Part shown: positions 3,467 through 29,858 of the stretch, piece by piece
Layout of the letters: each line of letters starts with the position of its first letter
Numbering within the stretch: the first letter of the stretch is position 1
Origin: Planctomyces sp. SH-PL62
GTDB taxonomy: Bacteria > Planctomycetota > Planctomycetia > Isosphaerales > Isosphaeraceae
NCBI RefSeq assembly: GCF_001610895.1
Contig: NZ_CP011273.1
Coordinates: 1 to 64,000 of the forward strand
Length of the DNA stretch: 64,000 nucleotides
Direction of reading: 5' to 3'
Translations under genes and position numbers: made by a program
The notes under the pieces: generated by a model
Told to the model about the DNA's origin: nothing
The model's database searches: none
Seen by the model: the letters and a program-made list of their open reading frames with translations, nothing else

Positions 3467-6703
<3,237 letters not shown>

Positions 6704-18815: not shown

Positions 18816-19496
18816 TCAGGGCACGTGATATTCGGCCCGCTCGCGCGGGAGGATGGGCTCCAGGGCGGCGAGCAGCTCGTGGGCGAACTCCCCCAGGGCG
18901 ACCGCGTCGGGGTCGACGTCGCCGGGGTAGAAGACTTCGACCGTCATCGACGAGCCGCGAGTGGTCCGTCCGTGGCTGCTGCGACTGGTGACGGGGAGCC
19001 GCCGGACGAAGTTCTCCAGCTTCCCCTCCCCGAAAATGTAGTACCAGAATCCCACATGCTTCACAAGGTCGCCCTGCGCGTAGCCCAGGCGGGTGGCGAC
19101 GACGGGCCGACCGCCGTCGGCGGCCGCCGGCAGCGCCAGCTCGCGGGTCTGGGACTCGATCTTGGTCCAGCCGCCGGAGGGGAGGCAGATCTCCGGCGTG
19201 TGCCGGAGGTTGGTGCCGTACTCCGAATAGTTGATCCAGAGCGTGAACTTCACGCCGGGGCGGCGACGGCTCTCGTAGCTCCGGTTGAGGTACTCGGTCG
19301 TCTGCGCCCGCTCGATGATGTCGGCCGAGACCGGCACGTCGCGGCCGACCCAGCCGTCGAGCTCCATCGGGATCGTCTTCAACGACTGCCTCAGCGGCGG
19401 CCGCTCGTGCGCGTCCAGCCGCTCCAGGCCCGCCTGCGCCGCCAGGCCGAGGGTCAACAACGCGGCGCACAGGCCGCAGCGCTTCACGGTCGTCAT
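18816..19496 (-). CDS. epsI: EpsI family protein (exosortase-associated)
   Basis: 226 residues. EpsI-type proteins accompany exosortases; their exact role in polysaccharide export or protein sorting is not settled. Features: an N-terminal signal or anchor helix ([13 protein letters not shown]), [17 protein letters not shown], then [20 protein letters not shown] with the HTPEIC motif typical of the family, and [15 protein letters not shown] overlap with the exosortase gene just upstream in the operon. Confidence 0.9.
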
Positions 19497-20599
19497 GACA
19501 GCTCCTCGGTTGCGGTCCTCAGCGAAAGCGGCCCGGCGACGCGACGGCTCGACCAGCCCCCCGACCGCGGCCGCCCGCCGGCGGGAGGATCGGGCTCAGC
19601 CTCGGGTTCGGGTTCGGTCGAAGTCGCCGTCGGCGAAGCCCCGTCGGCTCCCACGCAGAACAGGTCCATCAGCACGCAGACGGAGTTGAGCAGCAAGAGC
19701 CCCAGGCTCATCAGGAGGATCCCCTCCAGCGTGTGATAGGCCCCCTCGGCGTACGCGGGGTTGACGTAGTGCATGATGTAGCCGGTGACCACGACGCGGG
19801 TCGTGTTCGCGAACAGGGCGATCGGCAAGGCCGAGAGGACCACGACCGCCTTGTACCACCTGGGACGCCGCGTGAGGTACGCCACCGCCGCCGCCAGGGC
19901 CAGGAACCCGGTGAGCTGCCGCATCCCGCTGCAAGCCTCGGCCACGAACATCTGGACGCCCCCCGGCAGCGTCATCCGGTTCCCCTCGCAGAGCACGGGC
20001 ACCCCGGTCGCGTTCATGAACGACGACGCCACCCGGCTCGCCATGAGCTGCAAGGGCGAGGCGATCCGCGAGTACAGGGCGATCGGCAGCGGGACCATGA
20101 AGATCAGGAACGAGAAGACGAACCAGAACCGCCGAAGCGCCGCCGCGCCGGCCAAGATCGTGAACCCCCCGGCCAGCCCGGCCAGCAGCGCCAGGTCGCC
20201 CAGGAACGGGATCGGCAGCGGGATCGTCAGCAGGTGGACGAGCAAGGCACCCCCCAGCAGGACCCCCCCGAGCCAGACCCCCGAGCGGCCCTCGGGGGCG
20301 GCCGGCCAGCCCTCGCGGCGGTAGACCTGCGAGGCGAAATAGAGGCTCAACAGCGGCACGAGGAACCCGTGGCTGTAGTTGTCGTCGGTCGTCCACGCAT
20401 AGTAGAAGTGCCCCAGGCTCTCCTGGAACAGCAGCGCGAAGATGGCGAGGCAGGCGACGACGCCGAGGACCGTCGGCCGGTTGTCCGGGTCGCCGGCCCA
20501 GCGCCTCGCGGCGTCGAAGAGGCTCGCGGGGGCCTCCGGGACGGTCGCGGGTGCGGGGTGGGGAGTGGGGAGGTCGGGGGTCGCCGCCATGATGGTCAT
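19493..20599 (-). CDS. xrt: Exosortase (Xrt family membrane transpeptidase-like protein)
   Basis: 368 residues with about eight membrane helices. Exosortases recognise C-terminal PEP-CTERM signals and are thought to cleave and attach the protein at the surface. The catalytic-type residues are visible: Cys223 in [10 protein letters not shown], Arg268 in [11 protein letters not shown] and His277 in [10 protein letters not shown]-terminal cytoplasmic tail is acidic and low-complexity ([10 protein letters not shown]). Sits in the polysaccharide locus next to epsI, the usual context. A PEP-CTERM candidate client is encoded at 56716-57375. Confidence 0.94.
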
Positions 20600-20641: not shown

Positions 20642-22760
20642 TTAATTCGCCTTGGGCCCCGTGGGGCGGAGGCGATCCATCGTCCCTGAATTGCCGCGCT
20701 GCAGATCCATGGCGCGGCGGCTGACGTCGTCGGAGTCGACCACCGCCAGGGCCTCGTCGAGTGCGGCCCGGCGCTGGTCGTCGTCGTTGAGCCGCATCGC
20801 GACGTCGGCGAGGTTGAACCACCAGGAGCGTCGGATGCGGGGGTCGGCCATCCGGTCGATGGCCGCGCGGTAGCGTCGTTCGGAGTCCTTCCAGTCGGCC
20901 CGAAGCGCCATCGCCTCGGCCGCGACGGCGAGCGCGACGGCCTCGGCGGCCTCGTCCTCGGCCGGTTCGTCGGGGGCTCCCGCGCGGGCCTTGGCCTCGG
21001 CCTCGGCCCGGTCGAGGATCCGCTTGAGGATGGCGTCGGCCTCGGACCTCCCCTCCTTCTTCAGGACGCGGGCGGCGGCCAGGGCCGACACGCCCGACTC
21101 GGGGACGGCCTCGGCCCAGTCCGCGTACCGCCAGGAGGCGTCGGCGATCAGCTCGCGGATGATCGCGGCGGCGAGCTCCTCGCCCGGCAGGAGGTAGCGG
21201 GGGATGTTCGGGTCCTCGCTGAACGCGAGCGCGTCGCGGGGCGTCGGGACCGACCTGGCGGCGATCTCCAGCGCCCGGCGATAGGCCCCGACCGCCTCGG
21301 CGTCCTTGCCCGCCTTGTGCAGCGAGCGGCCGGTCCAGGCGAGGCTCACGGCGTCGCGGCTCAGGCCCAGGGACCCCCTGGGGTCGATCGCGCCGTCGGG
21401 CCGGTCGCCGGTCTTGCGGGCGAGGACGAACCGCGCCAGGGGGTCGAGCGGGCCGGCGAGCGCGGCGGCCTCCAGCATCTCGGGGGCGGTCGCGTCCCAG
21501 CCGTGCTCGACTCGCGTGCCGTCCAGGTAGACGCCCCACTCGGCCAGGTGCGCCGGCGCCGCGCCCCACCACGAAGGCCGGGGCGGGACGATCGACTTGG
21601 CCAGCGGCCGGTCCTTGGCGAGCCCTCGGCGGACGGCCGCCGAGTTCTGGATCGCGGTCGACGCGCCGTGCGAGACGACCGACTGCCGCCACGAGCCGAA
21701 CGCCAGGAGGCCGCCCACCGCCAGCGTCATCGCGAAGGCCGGGGGCGCCGTCAGCCAGGCCGGCGGGTTCCACTGGGAGGGCTCCCGCGCGACCGTCGGC
21801 GCACCGGCCGAAATCCTCGCCGGCCGCGACGGCGGCCTGGGGATCGCATCCCCCTCGTCGAGCCCGCGCCGGAGGCCGTTATTCAGGACGTCCTGCACCG
21901 AAGGGAGGACCCACTCGCCGCTGGGCCGCGATCGCCGCGACCGCGTCGGGTCGAACGGCTCGGCCCCGTCCTCGTCGTGCTCGACGCTCCTCGGCGCCGG
22001 GGCGACCGCCCGACGCGACCGGGCGCCCTCGCCGATCGGAGCCTGCGCCTGACCATAGCCGCTGGTGTCCGCGACGAACCGCGAATGCGTCGTCGTCGAT
22101 TCCACGACCGGCGCGTACGTCCAGGACGGCTCGGGCTCCGGCTCCGGCTCGACCGCTTGCACGGGTTCGAGTTCCGGCTCGGGCTCGATCGCCTGCTGCG
22201 GTTCAGGCGGGGCTTCCGGGGCGAACTCGGCGATCGGCGGTTCCAGGGCCTCGATCGTCGTCGGGGACGCGATCGGCTCCGGTTCCTCGGCCTGTGGGAC
22301 TTCGGCCTCGGAGGGAGCCGCATCCGGCTCGACCGTGAGGATCGGCTCGACGACTTCCGGCTCGGCTGGCCTGGGCTCGACCGTGAGGATCGGCTCGACC
22401 ACCTCCGGCTCGACCACCTCCGGCTCGACCGCGTCGGCCTGGGCCGTTTCAGCGGCGGCGAAGTCGCGATCCAGCTCGGCGACGTCCAGGTTTTCGAGAC
22501 GGGCGAGACGATCGAAATCCGGGTGCTCGACGATCGTCGGCGGCGGGGCGGGCTCGGGGATCGGGCTCGTCCAGGCTGCGGGCGAGGGCGTCTCGACGCA
22601 ACGGGCTTCGGGGATCGCGCCGCGGAACGGCTCGGGGATCGGGCTCGTCCAGGCTTCGGGCGTGGGGGGCTCGACGCGGCGGGGCTCGGGCGGGCGGACC
22701 GGCCGGGGCTTCGGCTGGGGCTGGGACTGGGGCGAGGCGGTCGCGCGGCGGGAGCGACGG
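20642..22760 (-). CDS. C-terminal part of FHA-domain membrane protein (reading frame displaced)
   Basis: About 705 residues in one frame, continuing the FHA protein that starts at 23480 after two apparent one-base hops. Contents in order: Pro/Glu-rich repeats (VEPEVV, VEPILTVEP; a 27-base exact repeat at 22551-22577 and 22629-22655), an acidic linker, and a short basic stretch. Then comes one hydrophobic helix (FAMTLAVGGLLAFGSW), followed by a helical domain of about 330 residues with tetratricopeptide-like segments (AVGAYRRALEIAARS; RRAALDEALAVVDS). Likely an inner-membrane protein with a long disordered cytoplasmic arm. It lies between exosortase and ligase genes, so a scaffolding or regulatory role in the polysaccharide machinery is inferred. 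The true start is not in this segment; the open frame runs on to 23140 but its first part is probably not the natural reading. Confidence 0.6.
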
Positions 22761-23480
22761 GCCGGGTGTAGGCGGCCGGCTCGAACCGGGGCGAGACCGG
22801 AGGCTTCGGGACGACCGTCGCTCTCGGCCGGGCGAGCGGCTCGACGCGGGACGCGGCGGCGCGAGGGGGTTCGGGCGTCGGGCGGCGGTCCGTGGGCTCG
22901 ACGGCGCGGGCCGGGGGGGCGTCGCGGGAGCGGCGGCGGCGGGGGCCGGCGAGGGCGTCGGCGCGGGGCGGGCTTCGACGGCGCGGGCCGCTTTGAGGCG
23001 GTCGCCGGCGGCCTGCCAGCGGGCCTCCCAGGGATTCCCCAGGTCGGGCGCCGGGGCGGCGGCCGTGGGCTCGGTCGTCGTCGGGGGCGCGGCATGCTCG
23101 GGGAAGGCTTCGGCGAGCGGCTCGCGGCCGGCGCGGCCACGAGGCTCGTCGCGCGGGGGACGCCAGTCGGGCTCGGCGAACTTGTTCCGCTTCAGGGCCA
23201 GCCGGAAGCCGCCGACCTGGAAGGCGACGTCGAACGGCAGGGGTCGCGGGCCGTCGATCGGACGGCCGTCGAGGGAGACGTCCGAGCCCCCCAACGGGGT
23301 CAGGTGCCAGGTCCTCCCGCGACGATGGAGTCGGCAGGCTTCCTCGGGGAGCGACGGGTCGGTGAGCCGAACCTCGCAGAAGGCCGCCCTGCCGATGCGC
23401 ACCGATATCCAGGGAACTTCCACGATGCGGATCGGCCCGGCGTCGTGGTCCTGAATATGGAGACAGGTGGATTCGGCCAT
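22761..23480 (-). CDS. N-terminal FHA domain and Pro-rich linker of the same protein (frameshifted)
   Basis: From ATG 23480 (MAESTCLHI) the frame encodes a forkhead-associated domain of about 95 residues (SVRIGRAAFCEVRLTD, then LTPLGGSDVSLDGRPI), a phosphothreonine-binding fold. It continues through GNPWEARWQAAGDRLKAARA into a Pro/Ala-rich linker. At the C7 run (22912-22918) the protein-like reading moves to the next frame (ARAVEPTDRRPTPEPP ... FEPAAYTRPVAPAA). Near 22740-22765 it moves again, into the frame of the downstream segment. Both hops need one missing base. Either two indels (mutation or assembly error) or a broken gene; the undamaged protein would be about 945 residues. Confidence 0.55.
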
Positions 23481-23541: not shown

Positions 23542-25113
23542 TCAACCGCGTTCGACGAACAGGTCCGTGCCGCCGGCGAGCCAGCGATTCCAGGTTCCAC
23601 CCAGGGCGCTGGCGGAGACGGCGACGGCGGTCAACTCGACCGTCCAGTGGACGGCGGCCAATAGACTAAGCCCCAAAGCCGCCCCGATCAACCCATGCGC
23701 CAGGAAACGATCCATCGACCCGAGCCGTTTCAGACCGCCGGGGATGCGGACCAGGCACCAGAGCGCCCCGAGCCCCAGGATCCCCAGGCCGACCACGCCC
23801 GTCTCGACCGCCCATTGCAACAGGCTGCTCATGGCGGTGTTGGAGGCCAGGTCGCGGTCCTTGAAGTACGGGTGCACCGCGCCGAAGCCTCCCAGGCCGA
23901 CCCCCGCCACGGGGAACTCGCGGAAGATCCGCGCGGCGTCGCGCCAGGTCTCGCGGTTCTCGCGCCAGTCGGGCGCCTGCCAGGGAGGCTGGACGCCGGT
24001 CAGGTCGTCCCAGCGGACCTGCAAGGCCACCCCCGAAGCCAGCGCGACGAGCAGCGAGGCGGCCAGGCCGAAGCCCAGGACGCGGGCGCCGGGCGTGAAC
24101 AGGGCCGGCAGCCCGACCATCGCCAGGCCGACCGCGAACGGCAGGCAGAACCAGGGGCCGGACGCCATCCCGACCAGCACGGCCCCCGGGATCGACAGCA
24201 GGATCAGGAGGATCGCCAGGCTCCCCTGCCCCGAGCGTCCCAGGCGGTCCGACCAGCCTTCGCGGCTCCCCCTCGGCGAGCAGAGGTGCAGGACCAGCGC
24301 CAGCGTCAGCGGCAGGGCCAGCGCGCCCAGCGCCAGGAACCCGCCGACCCCGCCGGGGAGGGTGCCGAACGTGAACGGTCGGACGACCTCCAGCTGCGCG
24401 GCCGGGGCCGAGCCCGGGGCCGTCGACGCGGGAAGCTCTCGGAGCGCCGCGACGGCCGGGGCGTCGAGCAGGTCGTTCAGGTCGGGAGCCCACCAGGGCG
24501 CTCCCGCGCCGGGGACGCAGAAGCCGTAGAGGCCGTCGGTCCGGGTGCTGATCTGCACCATCGCGAGGGTCGAATTCAGCAGGAACCCGGCGATCACCGC
24601 CCCCCAGACCAGGTACAGCCGCTGGAGCCGATCGACGGCGTGCGAGGCGCACCAGAAGATCGCCAGGCAGGCGGCCGCCAGGGCCAGCCGGCGGACGGTC
24701 GCCGCCCGGTCCAGGCTGACCGGCGTGCGGATCGTCGCCGGTTCGCCCAGCTTCGCGTTCGGGTCGTCGGCGCGGGCCAGGTCGGGGAGCACGCCCCGCG
24801 TGTAGGCCTCGCGGGCCGTGGGCGACAGCCGCGCCGCCAGGCTCGCCGGCAGGGGGACCGTCTGGGCGACGCCCAGCCCCAGGACCGCCAGGCCCAGGAG
24901 GCCGAGCGGGCTCTTGAGGATCGGCGAGCGGCCCGCGGCCAGATTCCGGACGAGCAGGAGCAGCGCCAGCCCGGTCGCGGCGACGGCCAGGGCCGGGCGC
25001 GACCACCAGGCCGTCCCCCCGAAGCCGAGGATCGCGGCCAGGACGAGGCCCGCCACCAGCCACCCGAAGGTGCGGTCGAACGTCGCCAGGAATCGCATGC
25101 GAAGGCTGTTCAC
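23542..25113 (-). CDS. O-antigen ligase / Wzy_C-like membrane protein
   Basis: 523 residues, about 11-12 hydrophobic segments with a large periplasmic loop. The segment TWRDAARIFREFPVAGVG followed by GLGGFGAVHPYF is the characteristic O-antigen-ligase-family motif ahead of the last helices. It would polymerise or ligate polysaccharide at the outer face of the inner membrane. Together with the Wzy-like gene at 14640-16079 the locus has two such proteins, perhaps polymerase and ligase. 42 bases from the kinase gene, 61 from the FHA gene. Confidence 0.85.
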   Translation of the reverse strand: MNSLRMRFLATFDRTFGWLVAGLVLAAILGFGGTAWWSRPALAVAATGLALLLLVRNLAAGRSPILKSPLGLLGLAVLGLGVAQTVPLPASLAARLSPTAREAYTRGVLPDLARADDPNAKLGEPATIRTPVSLDRAATVRRLALAAACLAIFWCASHAVDRLQRLYLVWGAVIAGFLLNSTLAMVQISTRTDGLYGFCVPGAGAPWWAPDLNDLLDAPAVAALRELPASTAPGSAPAAQLEVVRPFTFGTLPGGVGGFLALGALALPLTLALVLHLCSPRGSREGWSDRLGRSGQGSLAILLILLSIPGAVLVGMASGPWFCLPFAVGLAMVGLPALFTPGARVLGFGLAASLLVALASGVALQVRWDDLTGVQPPWQAPDWRENRETWRDAARIFREFPVAGVGLGGFGAVHPYFKDRDLASNTAMSSLLQWAVETGVVGLGILGLGALWCLVRIPGGLKRLGSMDRFLAHGLIGAALGLSLLAAVHWTVELTAVAVSASALGGTWNRWLAGGTDLFVERG

Positions 25114-25155: not shown

Positions 25156-27327
25156 TCAGGCGTCGGCCGGGGCGCCCGCCAGGGCGTCCTCGCGGGCGGG
25201 GGCCGCCGTCGGCGAGGCCGGCAGCGCCCGGTCGCGGCGGTACGACGACGCCGCGATCGGGGCCGGGCCGTAGCCGTAGCTCGACCAGTTCTCCACCCCT
25301 TCGCTGAGCCCGTTGACGATCACCCCGGCGATCTCGACGTGCGACTGCTCCAGCACGGCCTTCGCCCGCTGCAGCGTCATCGTCGGGTGGACGCCCGCCC
25401 GGACGACCAGCACCGCCGCGTCGACCATCCGGCCCAGCACGCGGCAGTCGGCCATGCCCAGGATCGCCGGGCCGTCCAGGATCACCCGGTCGTAGTGGTG
25501 CGTCAGCGCCGCCAGGAGCTGGCGAAGCTCCAGCGTGCCCAGGATCTCGATCGGGACCCCGCTCGGGTCGCCGGTGGCGATGAAATCCAGGTTGTGCAGG
25601 TCGGTGTGCCGCAGGGTCGCCTGCCAGGGGACGGACCCCTTGAGGACGTCGACCAGGCCGAGCCCGGAGTCCTCGTCGTCGGGGTCGGCCGGGAAGGCGT
25701 CGGCGAGCGTCGGCCGGCGGAGGTCGACGTCCATCAGCAGCGTCCGCTCGCCGGCGCGGGCGCAGGCGGCGGCCAGGTTGAGCGCCGCGGTGCTCTTGCC
25801 ATCGCCCGCCTTGGCGCTGGTGACCAGCAGGCTGACGATCGGGCCGTTGCGGTCGGCCGCCCCCAGGAGGCTCGCCCGGATGTTGCGGAAGGCGTCGGCC
25901 GCCGCCGAGTCCGGGACGGCCGGGGTCCACAGGTGCCCCCCCCCTCGATGGGTCAGCGCCGTGCGCGGGATCCGCGGCACGATCCCCAGCAGCGGCAGCG
26001 ACAGGCCGTGGCTGACGTGCTCCGGCTCGCGCACCGAGTGGTCCAGGTGCTCCAGCAGGAAGACCAGGCCCAGGCCCAGGCCGATGCTGACGATCAGCCC
26101 CATCGCGATCGAGACCACGCGGTTCGGCTTGATCGGCACGGTCGGCTCCTCGATCCGCGTCAGGATCTTCACCGGCGCGGTCTGCGACTTCGCCAGGATC
26201 TCGAACGAGGCCAGGTCGTGCTCCATGTCGGCGATCCGCTTCCGCAGCGTGTCGCGATCGCTCATCAGGCCGAGGAACTTCTGGTGGTCGGGCATGGCCT
26301 TCCGCATCCGTTCCAGCAGGTCGGCCAGGCGGCTCTCGTCGGCCTCGATGTCGCGGTGCTGCGACTCGATGATCATCTCGGTCGGGTCGGCGGCCATCTT
26401 CGTCTTCTGGAACGAGGCGCCGAGCTGATCGATCTCGTCGAGCACGTCGTTCAGGTGGTTGGAGACGTTCTGGACGGCCGGGTCGGAGTTGAAGTGGCGG
26501 GCCTTGCGCTTCAGGTCCAGGAGCCGCTTGGTGAGCTGGTCCTTGGCGTCCTGGAGCTGGGCCATCTGCTGCTGCTTCATGGCGGCGACGGGGTCGCCCT
26601 GACCTTCCCTGGGGAAGAGCGGGGCGAACATCGTCTTCTGCTGGAACTCGACGACGCGCGCCTGCTTGTGGGCGATCGACTGGCCGAGGTGGGCGTACTG
26701 CTCCTCCAGGATGTTCCGGCCGCCGGGGCCGATCGTCCCCAGGCTGGCGATCTGGCCGAGCATCTGCTTCTCCAGCGCGGCCGATTCCTGCCGGAGCTTG
26801 TTCAGGGCCGACTCGGTGTGCTGGACCGTCTGGTCGACCTGATTGCGGCGGTCGCCGTCGGCGTGCTTGACCAGCTCTTCCAGCTCGGCCTCCAGCAGCC
26901 GCTTGGTCAGGGCCGGGTCGCGGCCCGTCAGCGCGACGTTGTAGGTGTTGGACTTCATGAGCTGCTTGACCGTGATGTTGCTGACGATCAGCTCCATCGC
27001 CGGGTCGTCGAGCTGGGCCAGCTCGGGGCCGAGCCGGGTGTTCGAGAGGACCTTGTCGGCCAGCCCCCGCCCCTGGAGGTCGGTGACCAGGTCGGTCGCG
27101 TAGCTCGTCTGGGTCGCCGAGTCGACCGGGCCGATGTCGCGCGAGACCAGCGTGGAGAGCGCCGCGTCGTAGTGCGGCTGCTCGATCCGGATCTGGGCCA
27201 CGGCCTGGTAGATCTTGGGCTGGCGGAGCGCCCAGATCGAGGTCAGCGTCCCCATCGGCACGGCGACGATCAGGGCCAGCCAGAACCGCCGCCGCAGCGC
27301 CCCCAGGTAATGCCCCGGCGTCTTCAC
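25156..27327 (-). CDS. Polysaccharide co-polymerase and tyrosine autokinase (Wzc-like BY-kinase)
   Basis: 723 residues. An N-terminal Wzz-type domain (first membrane helix LALIVAVPMGTLTSIW; long periplasmic coiled coil about residues 170-380; second helix IAMGLIVSIGLGLGLVFLLE) is fused to a C-terminal bacterial tyrosine kinase. The kinase has Walker A SAKAGDGKST (Lys511), Walker A' TLLMDVDLRRPT and Walker B-like VILDGPAI. A tail contains Tyr residues (SSYGYGP, SSYRRD) suited for autophosphorylation. It controls chain length and export of the polysaccharide. The start shown is GTG 27327. A better-looking start (MDDISPYRGPS at 27458, GGAG 6 bases upstream) is one frame away, so the real N-terminus may be about 45 residues longer with a frame hop near 27390-27410. 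Confidence 0.92.
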   Translation of the reverse strand: MKTPGHYLGALRRRFWLALIVAVPMGTLTSIWALRQPKIYQAVAQIRIEQPHYDAALSTLVSRDIGPVDSATQTSYATDLVTDLQGRGLADKVLSNTRLGPELAQLDDPAMELIVSNITVKQLMKSNTYNVALTGRDPALTKRLLEAELEELVKHADGDRRNQVDQTVQHTESALNKLRQESAALEKQMLGQIASLGTIGPGGRNILEEQYAHLGQSIAHKQARVVEFQQKTMFAPLFPREGQGDPVAAMKQQQMAQLQDAKDQLTKRLLDLKRKARHFNSDPAVQNVSNHLNDVLDEIDQLGASFQKTKMAADPTEMIIESQHRDIEADESRLADLLERMRKAMPDHQKFLGLMSDRDTLRKRIADMEHDLASFEILAKSQTAPVKILTRIEEPTVPIKPNRVVSIAMGLIVSIGLGLGLVFLLEHLDHSVREPEHVSHGLSLPLLGIVPRIPRTALTHRGGGHLWTPAVPDSAAADAFRNIRASLLGAADRNGPIVSLLVTSAKAGDGKSTAALNLAAACARAGERTLLMDVDLRRPTLADAFPADPDDEDSGLGLVDVLKGSVPWQATLRHTDLHNLDFIATGDPSGVPIEILGTLELRQLLAALTHHYDRVILDGPAILGMADCRVLGRMVDAAVLVVRAGVHPTMTLQRAKAVLEQSHVEIAGVIVNGLSEGVENWSSYGYGPAPIAASSYRRDRALPASPTAAPAREDALAGAPADA

Positions 27328-27561: not shown

Positions 27562-29268
27562 TCAGCGGCGGGCCAGCCCGGCGGCGGGCGGGACGCCCCG
27601 GATCGCCTCGGGCGGCTGGCCGGCGTCGACGGCCGGCTCCTGGAATCGCAGCCGACGGCCCAGGCCTCGGGCCATCGCGATCGGGAAGGCGGGCCGCGGC
27701 GCGGCGTCCGCGTCGACGTCGGTCGCGGCGGCTTCGATCGCCTCGGCACCCGCGGCCTCGTCGGCGGCGAAGGCCCGCAGGCGTTCGCCCAGGCTCTGCG
27801 TCAGGCGCTGGAGGTAGCGGAAGACGATGTCGGCCGCCAGGCCCCCTTCGGGCGACAGCCGCATGACGGCCGTGATCCGCAGGTCGTCGCTCACCGTTCG
27901 GAAGATCGCCCCCGGCGACGAGGAGGCCCCGTTGTCGATGGCGTCGAGCGTGTGGACGGCGTCCTCGGGCGGGAACGTCGCGTCGGCGCAGGCGACGTGG
28001 ATCCCGGCGCAGCCCAGGGCCTCGGCCGTCCGCTCCAGGATCTCGTACGCGGCCATCGGCGAGGTGCACAGCTCGACCCGCTGGATGGCCTCCCACGTCA
28101 GCTTCGCGGCCTGCCGCTCCTGGCGGCCCCGGAGCATCCGGGCCTGGAAGTCGTCCAGCAGGTTGTTCAGCTCGTCGCGACGGCTGGTCACCACCACCAG
28201 GAACGCCAGGCAGCCCGACATCCCCAGCACCAGCGCCAGGAACTCGCTCCGCAGCGAGACCCCCAGCAGCACCACCCCGCACAGGAAGCCGGAGAAGCAG
28301 TACAGCAAGAGCGCCGCCTGCCTCGGGTTGAGCCCCAGGCCGATCAGGATGTGGTGGACGTGCCGACGGTCGGCCGCGCTCATCGGCAGGTTCCGCACCC
28401 AGCGCCGGAAGATGGCCATCGCCGTGTCCGAGATCGGCAGCCCCATCGCCAGGATCGGGAACAGGATCGAGATCGCCGACGGGCCCTTCAGCGACCCTTG
28501 CACGCCGATCACCCCGATCAACAGCCCGATCAGGAGCGCCCCGCTGTCTCCCAGGAAGATGCAGGCGGGATGCCAGTTGTAGAGCAGGAACCCGGCCAGC
28601 GAGCCGGCCAGGGCCGTCGCCAGGATGGCGACCTCGACGTTCTGGTTGTGCAGGGCCACCAGGGTCAGGGTGCCGCTCACCAGCAGGCCCACACCCGACG
28701 CCAGGCCGTCCATGCCGTCGATCAGGTTCCAGACGTTCATGCAGCCCAGGAACCAGAACATGGTGATGACCAGGCTCGGCGCCGCGACGTCGAACGTCTG
28801 GCCCAGCACCGCGAGGTGCAACGCCGGGCTCCCCAGGTCCAGGTTCAGCCCCAGGGCCTCGATCCGGTCGATCCGGATGCCCCCCAGGTACAGGGCCATG
28901 ACCGCCGCGGCCTGCCCCAGCAGCTTGACCCGAGGGCCCAGCGACCGGGTGTCGTCGACGAAGCCGACGACCAGGATGATCAGGGCCGCGATGAAGATCG
29001 GCCACTCGCGGCCCAGGTCGGGCAAGTTGATGTTGATGTTCGCCGACCACGCCGAGGCGTGCGGCAGGAAGACCCCCACGGCCACGCCCAGGGCCAGGCC
29101 GAGGCCCCCCAGCCGGGGGACCGCCGTGGTGTGGATCCGCCGGAAGTTGTCCGGCTTGTCGATCGCGCCCACCCACCCCGCGATCTGCGTGACCAGGGGC
29201 GTGGCCAGCACGCACCCCATCATCGCGAACGCGAAGATCATCAGGTATCCGTTCGAGATCATCATCAT
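27562..29268 (-). CDS. Undecaprenyl-phosphate sugar-1-phosphate transferase (MraY/WecA family) with C-terminal extension
   Basis: 568 residues. The first 340 or so form the multi-helix polyprenyl-phosphate N-acetylhexosamine-1-phosphate transferase: VPRLGGLGLALG, the Asp pair in VVGFVDDTRSLG, NLIDGMDGLASG, FLGDSGALLIG and the HHILIGLGL loop. This enzyme would load the first sugar-phosphate on the lipid carrier. The remaining 220 residues form a soluble extension of GAF-like alternating pattern (AYEILERTAEALGCAGIHVA) plus an acidic tail; the domain is not firmly identified. I chose the first of three tandem ATGs (29268) with GGGGAGGG about 10 bases upstream. First gene of the locus. Confidence 0.9.
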   Translation of the reverse strand: MMMISNGYLMIFAFAMMGCVLATPLVTQIAGWVGAIDKPDNFRRIHTTAVPRLGGLGLALGVAVGVFLPHASAWSANININLPDLGREWPIFIAALIILVVGFVDDTRSLGPRVKLLGQAAAVMALYLGGIRIDRIEALGLNLDLGSPALHLAVLGQTFDVAAPSLVITMFWFLGCMNVWNLIDGMDGLASGVGLLVSGTLTLVALHNQNVEVAILATALAGSLAGFLLYNWHPACIFLGDSGALLIGLLIGVIGVQGSLKGPSAISILFPILAMGLPISDTAMAIFRRWVRNLPMSAADRRHVHHILIGLGLNPRQAALLLYCFSGFLCGVVLLGVSLRSEFLALVLGMSGCLAFLVVVTSRRDELNNLLDDFQARMLRGRQERQAAKLTWEAIQRVELCTSPMAAYEILERTAEALGCAGIHVACADATFPPEDAVHTLDAIDNGASSSPGAIFRTVSDDLRITAVMRLSPEGGLAADIVFRYLQRLTQSLGERLRAFAADEAAGAEAIEAAATDVDADAAPRPAFPIAMARGLGRRLRFQEPAVDAGQPPEAIRGVPPAAGLARR

Positions 29269-29672
29269 CAGCCCAGGCCCTCCCCGCGCCGCTTCCTTGA
29301 AGCGCCGGTCGTCGTCGTCCGGTTCGGTAGACCGATCGGAATCGGAGGCCGATCCGCGACGAGGCATCCGTCGAGGAGTCGGGAAATCGCGTCCGCCGCC
29401 AGCGAGGCGAGGGCGGCGAGCGTCGGGGGGACGGCTGAGGACCGCCCGCGAAGTCGAGGTCTTCGACCCGCGCGGCCCGTCGTGCGTCGATGGAAAGACA
29501 GGGTGTAGCCAAGCACGGTAGGTCTCGTCTTCCTTGACTCGTGCAGGTGCAATTTCCATCCCCAGGATTCCATCCCGAGTTTGGAGACTCTCGTGAGAGA
29601 GCGGAGTATCCCCGATCGATGCAACCCCGTCAAGCGTGATCGCCGGCGAAACCGGGCCCGCCGCAAGCCCCT
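29269..29672 (-). other. Leader and promoter region of the polysaccharide locus
   Basis: About 400 bases without a supported gene. It contains the candidate promoter at 29605-29633, so the transcript leader would be about 330 nt, long enough for regulatory structure. I did not recognise a known riboswitch. Confidence 0.5.
29605..29633 (-). promoter_or_regulatory. Candidate sigma70 promoter of the exopolysaccharide operon
   Basis: Minus strand TTGACG (29628-29633), exactly 17 bases, then GATACT (29605-29610): 5/6 and 4/6 matches to the consensus. An inverted repeat CTCTC-GT-GAGAG (29588-29599) lies at the expected transcription start and could be an operator. Confidence 0.5.
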
Positions 29673-29858
29673 TCAATCGACCTCTTTGGGGCGTCCTCGC
29701 GGCGTCTCGTCCTTGGGGATCGCCGTCGCGATCGTCGCCGATCCCAGCAGGATCGCCCCGGCGATCAGGAACGGCCGGTCCGACCCGCTCCCGACGGCAC
29801 CGATGAACAGCGCGGGGGCCGAAAGGAGGATGCAGAGAACGATCAAGAGGCTCTTCAT
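29673..29858 (-). CDS. Small membrane protein of unknown function
   Basis: 61 residues with two hydrophobic stretches (LLIVLCILLSAPALFIGAV and FLIAGAILLGSATIATAI) and a charged tail (DETPRGRPKEVD). The composition is protein-like and the ATG start is clear, but no family is recognised. It lies 43 bases after the methyltransferase-like gene's 5' neighbour region on the same strand and just upstream of the polysaccharide promoter. Confidence 0.5.
   Translation of the reverse strand: MKSLLIVLCILLSAPALFIGAVGSGSDRPFLIAGAILLGSATIATAIPKDETPRGRPKEVD

Follow-up and report, generated by a model that had tools for sequence, protein, structure and literature searches.

Proteins of the YscD/PrgH/MxiG family of type III secretion systems are inner-membrane components that carry a membrane helix. 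In this family (PF16697), an FHA fold lacking the phosphothreonine residues is combined with a second domain beyond the membrane helix, and the account of PrgH in PMC3635987 considers it unlikely to bind phosphothreonine proteins. A second system, PEP-CTERM/EpsH, includes PrsT (TIGR02917), a TPR protein described as accompanying exosortase and polysaccharide genes (PMC1569441). The predicted product of the gene described here resembles the first system in its anatomy and the second as a TPR-like protein encoded beside exosortase and polysaccharide genes.

The window analyzed, the first 64,000 nucleotides of contig NZ_CP011273.1 of Planctomyces sp. SH-PL62, harbors a locus with the gene order WecA-type transferase, Wzz-tyrosine autokinase, Wzy/ligase, FHA-TPR gene, exosortase, and EpsI (Table 1). 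Among NCBIfam models, the exosortase reaches no specific exosortase cut-off, only the general EpsH and exosortase/archaeosortase models. The whole order is retained in Paludisphaera soli, in two other genomes designated G001 and G002, and in six of ten further contig loci of relatives (one of which is P. soli again); the other four loci are cut by contig ends, and no other order was seen. The C-terminal part of the FHA-TPR protein was found in 35 genomes, including SH-PL62, when 59 relatives were searched, and all 35 belong to one family. The exosortase gene lies directly downstream in 34 of the 35, and in the remaining genome (G020) the contig ends approximately 210 bases past the match. A class-wide profile search of 248 genomes gave matches in 42 genomes of the family and weak matches in 10 others (E 3.9e-5 to 6.1e-4); three unmatched family members are among the genomes listed, and 176 unmatched genomes are outside that list. 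G010, unmatched in this search, nonetheless carries the gene in the same slot.

Table 1. Features of the FHA-TPR gene and its neighbors in the SH-PL62 window.
Feature	Position	Strand	Basis
WecA-type glycosyl-phosphate transferase gene	27562..29676	(-)	PF00953
Wzz/tyrosine autokinase gene	25156..27327	(-)	
O-antigen ligase/polymerase-type (Wzy/ligase) gene	23542..25113	(-)	PF04932
FHA-linker-membrane helix-TPR gene, divided among three frames of the SH-PL62 assembly	20642..23480	(-)	
Degenerate FHA domain, residues 1-100, frame 0	23181..23480	(-)	PF00498, 22.2 bits vs cut-off 20.7
Linker motif NPWEARWQAAGDRLKA, frame 0	22989..23036	(-)	WxxRW-type motif in 22/28 orthologues
C7 run at hop 1	22913..22919	(-)	
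Middle piece of linker, frame 2	22757..22909	(-)	P. soli homology
Hop 2 zone, longest run <=4	22715..22756	(-)	Placed by homology
Remainder of the linker with the membrane helix and the TPR-like domain, frame 1	20645..22720	(-)	P. soli homology
Linker motif WVLPSVQDVL, frame 1	21884..21913	(-)	PSxx[DE][IV][LM] in 15/28 orthologues
Predicted membrane helix	21698..21754	(-)	Best hydrophobic window of homologous P. soli segment; model helix H5-48 covers it
TPR-like domain	20645..21690	(-)	Foldseek best match consensus TPR, E 4.4e-6
Exosortase gene	19493..20599	(-)	PF09721, 209.9 bits
EpsI/DUF3485 gene	18816..19496	(-)	PF11984, 110.3 bits

The FHA frame (frame 0) begins with an ATG at 23480 on the minus strand and continues for 343 open codons, while the stop codon of the C-terminal frame (frame 1) occupies 20642-20644. 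A coding signal is present in all three frames: that of the FHA part, that of the C-terminal two thirds, and frame 2, which holds a middle piece some 50 codons long. Each of these pieces aligns, in its own frame, to a single P. soli protein, with 79% identity over 185 codons for the N-terminal piece, 61% over 49 codons for the middle piece (approximately 22909-22757), and 74% over 662 codons for the C-terminal piece, in agreement with the three frames and two hops of the sequence-only reading. The corresponding identities to G001 are 85%, 69%, and 69%. Third codon positions hold 57 of 101 mismatches to P. soli in the N-terminal piece, 20 of 41 in the middle piece, and 186 of 407 in the C-terminal piece. 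The middle piece scores 156 against P. soli in frame 2, compared with 90 and 57 in the other two frames; a single hop in place of two is ruled out by this piece, which has its own frame and its own homology. Both hops are in the one-base-missing direction, in line with the earlier reading that one added base would repair each. The first was expected in a C7 run, which is indeed present, at 22913-22919 and not at 22912-22918. The second was expected near 22740-22765; homology puts it at approximately 22715-22756, which overlaps that range and reaches beyond it, in a zone without any run longer than four. The GC content of 22700-22950 is 84.1%, a value matched by 0.011% of 250-nt windows in the 464 kb of the SH-PL62 genome scanned, for which overall GC is 70.3%.

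Besides SH-PL62, 34 genomes encode the C-terminal part; contig ends truncate it in three (G008, G032, and G034), no FHA domain is detected in two (G007 and G026), and one has an N gap, which falls in the same linker (G004), leaving 28 that could be assessed. In 26 of these 28, including the closest relative, P. soli (935 aa), the FHA domain and the C-terminus share a single open frame. The FHA part and the C-terminal part are consequently one gene, not two, and the length of about 945 residues predicted for the repaired protein is in line with that of P. soli. The sequence-only reading had looked to orthologues split at the same places as a sign of two separate genes; that pattern is not seen, as 26 of the 28 relatives are unsplit and G001, the one split in the same linker, is so by one hop and not by two. 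An arrangement of two separate genes, one for an FHA protein and one for a membrane-TPR protein, would fit G007 and G026 (both of one genus; L122 and L123), in which no FHA domain is detected before the membrane-TPR protein, and also the similar FHA-less proteins of two genomes from another family (G044 and G048), but it is scarcely credible for SH-PL62, given that one frame carries both parts in 26 of 28 relatives and that no separate start for the C-terminal frame is evident in the linker. It was rejected on these 26 one-frame relatives.

The two broken orthologues among the 28 are those of G001 and of Singulisphaera sp. GP187 (G014). In the G001 gene a single hop, likewise missing-base, falls in this linker at a site with no run of five or more, and the G014 gene lacks a base at a G8 run inside the FHA domain (L130, 2452 of the reverse strand). 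Unlike G014, S. acidiphila (G031) has an intact orthologue. Programmed slippage at the C7 run, either ribosomal or transcriptional, would yield two products and is suggested by the run itself at hop 1 and by the nearby G001 hop in the same direction. Such a mechanism is very improbable, as no hop is needed in 26 of 28 relatives, the G001 hop has no run of at least five, and hop 2 has no slippery run. The locus was likewise rejected as a programmed-frameshift gene, the hop not being conserved.

To place the two hops in the context of the genome entry, predicted genes were compared among four Paludisphaera-group stretches (SH-PL62, G001, G002, and P. soli). In SH-PL62, 121.9 kb of coding DNA could be tested by homology, and seven hops in six genes were found there. 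All seven are missing-base hops, and six of the seven occur at G/C runs of 6-8 (C7 in the FHA gene, then G8, C6, C7, C7, and G7), against a background in which approximately 5.1% of bases are no more than 15 nt from a run of at least six, an approximate comparison as the break intervals differ in length. An eighth break row (6161-6192, of the extra-base kind) was dropped because its sole query is a fragment of a G002 gene broken at C9, and the SH-PL62 copy is open over 1078 aa. In the control, P. soli, 138.6 kb were tested and there are 51 runs of at least seven, versus 47 in SH-PL62; only two candidate hops were found, one missing and one extra, each from one query, with a C6 inside the interval of one, which spans 406 bases, and a G5 next to the second.

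Seven candidate hops were found in G001; five of them appear only with SH-PL62 queries, two of those queries being fragments of genes broken in SH-PL62. By query source, genes broken in G001 number 2 of 79 (P. soli), 0 of 80 (G002), and 5 of 73 (SH-PL62). In G002, one break is backed by three queries and lies at a C9 run in the gene for the carbamoyl-phosphate synthase large chain (L107 near 17016; C1 at about 4097016), a hardly dispensable gene whose copy in the SH-PL62 window (3470-6703) is open. A second G002 break row was seen only with a fragment query from SH-PL62.

The break in the FHA-TPR gene is best read as bases lost in assembly because all seven SH-PL62 hops are of the missing-base kind, six of them are at G/C runs, and the stretch concerned is 84% GC. 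Systematic nanopore errors are described in PMC8011154 as chiefly homopolymer indels, which shift the frame. The frame hops are thus most likely a sequence fault in which single bases were lost in a GC-rich stretch, a conclusion we infer from the pattern of the breaks; the gene would be intact in the organism, with one base lost at the C7 run and a second some 160-200 bases further on. It is also conceivable, if unlikely, that the damage is real and recent, the strain having lost bases in a GC-rich, slippage-prone linker to leave a fresh pseudogene or only a short FHA-linker protein. There are two hops, one of them without a long run, and the linker is broken in G001 as well; since the G001 hop has no run of at least five and G001 is otherwise fairly clean, a real indel hotspot is possible. 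Real damage is nevertheless at odds with the third-position bias and protein identity retained on both sides and in the middle piece, and with the five other SH-PL62 genes, each of which also has a missing-base break at a G/C run.

These five further conserved genes each contain a missing-base break at a G/C run of 6-8; the breaks lie at contig positions 68098, 77816, 132633, 138601, and 191910 (L079, L082, and L085). Among the intact copies of these genes in relatives are a sulfate-type ABC ATPase, a sigma-54 activator, and a LarA-like protein. The hops in the FHA-TPR gene, most likely a sequence fault, have in this way brought to light other conserved genes broken at G/C runs in the SH-PL62 genome entry. 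The intact protein matters more than the hops, given that its gene adjoins an exosortase gene in nearly every Isosphaeraceae genome examined.

The FHA domain at the N-terminus of this protein is degenerate. Its PF00498 score, slightly above the cut-off in SH-PL62, is 18.4, 15.4, and 18.3 in three intact members of the genus, all under the cut-off of 20.7, and 32.9 in the G010 copy. With PF16697, the YscD/PrgH cytoplasmic domain, the window piece scores higher, at 29.7, three orthologues 28.9-29.5, and the G010 copy 32.0, all under the cut-off of 33.2. The model of the domain is of low confidence (pLDDT 53.8); its best Foldseek match is an FHA domain at E 2.3e-3, with none at or below 0.001, and a sequence search with the FHA profile against solved structures gave no match at E 1.

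The canonical phosphothreonine-binding FHA motif consists of GR, SxxH, and NG. Across the 28 orthologues, the Gly of GR is present in 28 and the Arg in 25, the His of SxxH is present in one, and the Ser of SxxH and the Asn of NG are present in none. On these residues a phosphothreonine reader was rejected, and the FHA domain of the intact protein, as judged from its sequence, should be unable to use the textbook phosphothreonine mechanism. Other columns are retained, namely Cys35 and Trp58 in 28 of 28 and Arg53 and Gly55 in 27, which indicates that selection maintains the domain for a different role. The sequence-only reading had supposed that the protein links phospho-signaling with the polysaccharide machinery, a proposal that is not supported, given the loss of the Ser, His, and Asn residues and the lack of a detectable FHA domain in G007 and G026. 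The rival view, in which the FHA domain does bind partners that are phosphorylated and passes kinase signals on to the polysaccharide machinery, could draw on the Arg of GR in 25 of 28 orthologues, the tyrosine autokinase encoded two genes upstream, and the G010 copy well above the FHA cut-off; set against the same missing residues and the same two FHA-less genomes, we regard it as decidedly unlikely. With the phosphothreonine-binding residues lost, the FHA domain most likely docks a partner without phosphate.

The linker that follows is 325-578 residues long in the six orthologues measured and is rich in Pro, Ala, and Glu. In addition to the two conserved motifs (Table 1), a third, FVADTS, is found in only 5 of 28 orthologues. 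A single hydrophobic helix precedes the TPR-like domain; the positive-inside rule is uninformative as to orientation, the N-terminal flank being the more positive in 15 of 28. The model of the TPR-like domain has a pLDDT of 79.4, with low TM-scores to consensus TPR proteins (0.27-0.35). TPR matches in the window are under the Pfam cut-offs, and the G005 orthologue reaches 27.1 with TPR_2, for which the cut-off is 27. In a second structural comparison, every one of the 980 aligned chains reaches Z 2, with a best Z of 13.6, and they include many TPR proteins but also 14-3-3 proteins, so this comparison indicates a helical repeat and nothing more specific. The C-terminal end is KAN or RAN in 10 of 28 orthologues. 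The overall picture drawn earlier, of a single gene in an exosortase locus encoding an FHA domain, a Pro/Glu-rich linker, one membrane helix, and helical repeats and interrupted by two one-base breaks, is borne out.

From this anatomy and gene order, the FHA-TPR protein is most likely a transmembrane scaffold. The FHA domain, devoid of the phosphothreonine residues, could dock a cytoplasmic partner independently of phosphate, as concluded for PrgH in PMC3635987. The long, flexible Pro/Glu/Ala linker would give reach, and its short conserved motifs may be docking motifs. The single helix would then cross the membrane, and the TPR-like domain on the far side could bind the exosortase, EpsI, or cargo. 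In this manner the scaffold would most likely tether the polysaccharide assembly proteins to the exosortase/EpsI pair, or to the cargo of this pair, across the membrane. What the analysis shows directly is the three frames, the one-frame relatives, the conserved locus, the missing FHA residues, and the TPR-like fold of the model; that the breaks are errors, how the protein lies in the membrane, which partners it has, and its role as a scaffold are inferred. We are confident, if short of certain, that the gene is intact in the organism and broken only in its sequence entry, and that its product is a single-pass membrane scaffold with phosphate-independent FHA docking. The missing link between polysaccharide export and the sorting of proteins by exosortase in planctomycetes may be this intact protein, a candidate that can be put to the test. 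More tentatively, it may represent an undescribed, Isosphaeraceae-wide scaffold coupling Wzy-type polysaccharide assembly to exosortase sorting, in which the FHA domain, a phosphate-independent docking module, was added at the N-terminal end of a more ancient TPR protein that had one helix and held this operon slot. No paper combining exosortase and an FHA domain was found among the open-licence papers searched.

Among 11 exosortase loci examined outside the family, a single-helix protein occupies the slot only in G044 (L154:5150-6793) and G048 (L155:1773-3659), and is not seen in the other nine. In both of these genomes, which belong to another family, a single-helix TPR protein is encoded directly before the exosortase and behind an 11-helix protein, the upstream neighbors having been assessed by size and helices only. 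The TPR matches are above the Pfam cut-offs (TPR_16 35.1 vs 32.7; TPR_14 26.0 vs 23.5), and both proteins end in RAN, a feature shared with the KAN/RAN orthologues of the FHA-TPR protein. Unlike the latter, they have no FHA match, and any homology to its C-terminal family is weak (hhalign probability 11, E 0.0027).

With respect to the described systems, PrsT has a lipoprotein signal in the description of PMC1569441, whereas the FHA-TPR protein starts with the FHA domain and has one mid-protein helix; by inspection, an N-terminal lipoprotein signal is absent, the protein beginning MAESTCLHIQD and running straight into the FHA domain. No NCBIfam model, TIGR02917 included, matches the C-terminal piece at E 0.01. 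The five neighbors scanned include no type III secretion genes and are all polysaccharide or exosortase genes. The FHA-TPR protein differs from YscD, PrgH, and MxiG in remaining under the PF16697 cut-off, in having a TPR-like second domain, and in being encoded in a polysaccharide/exosortase locus.
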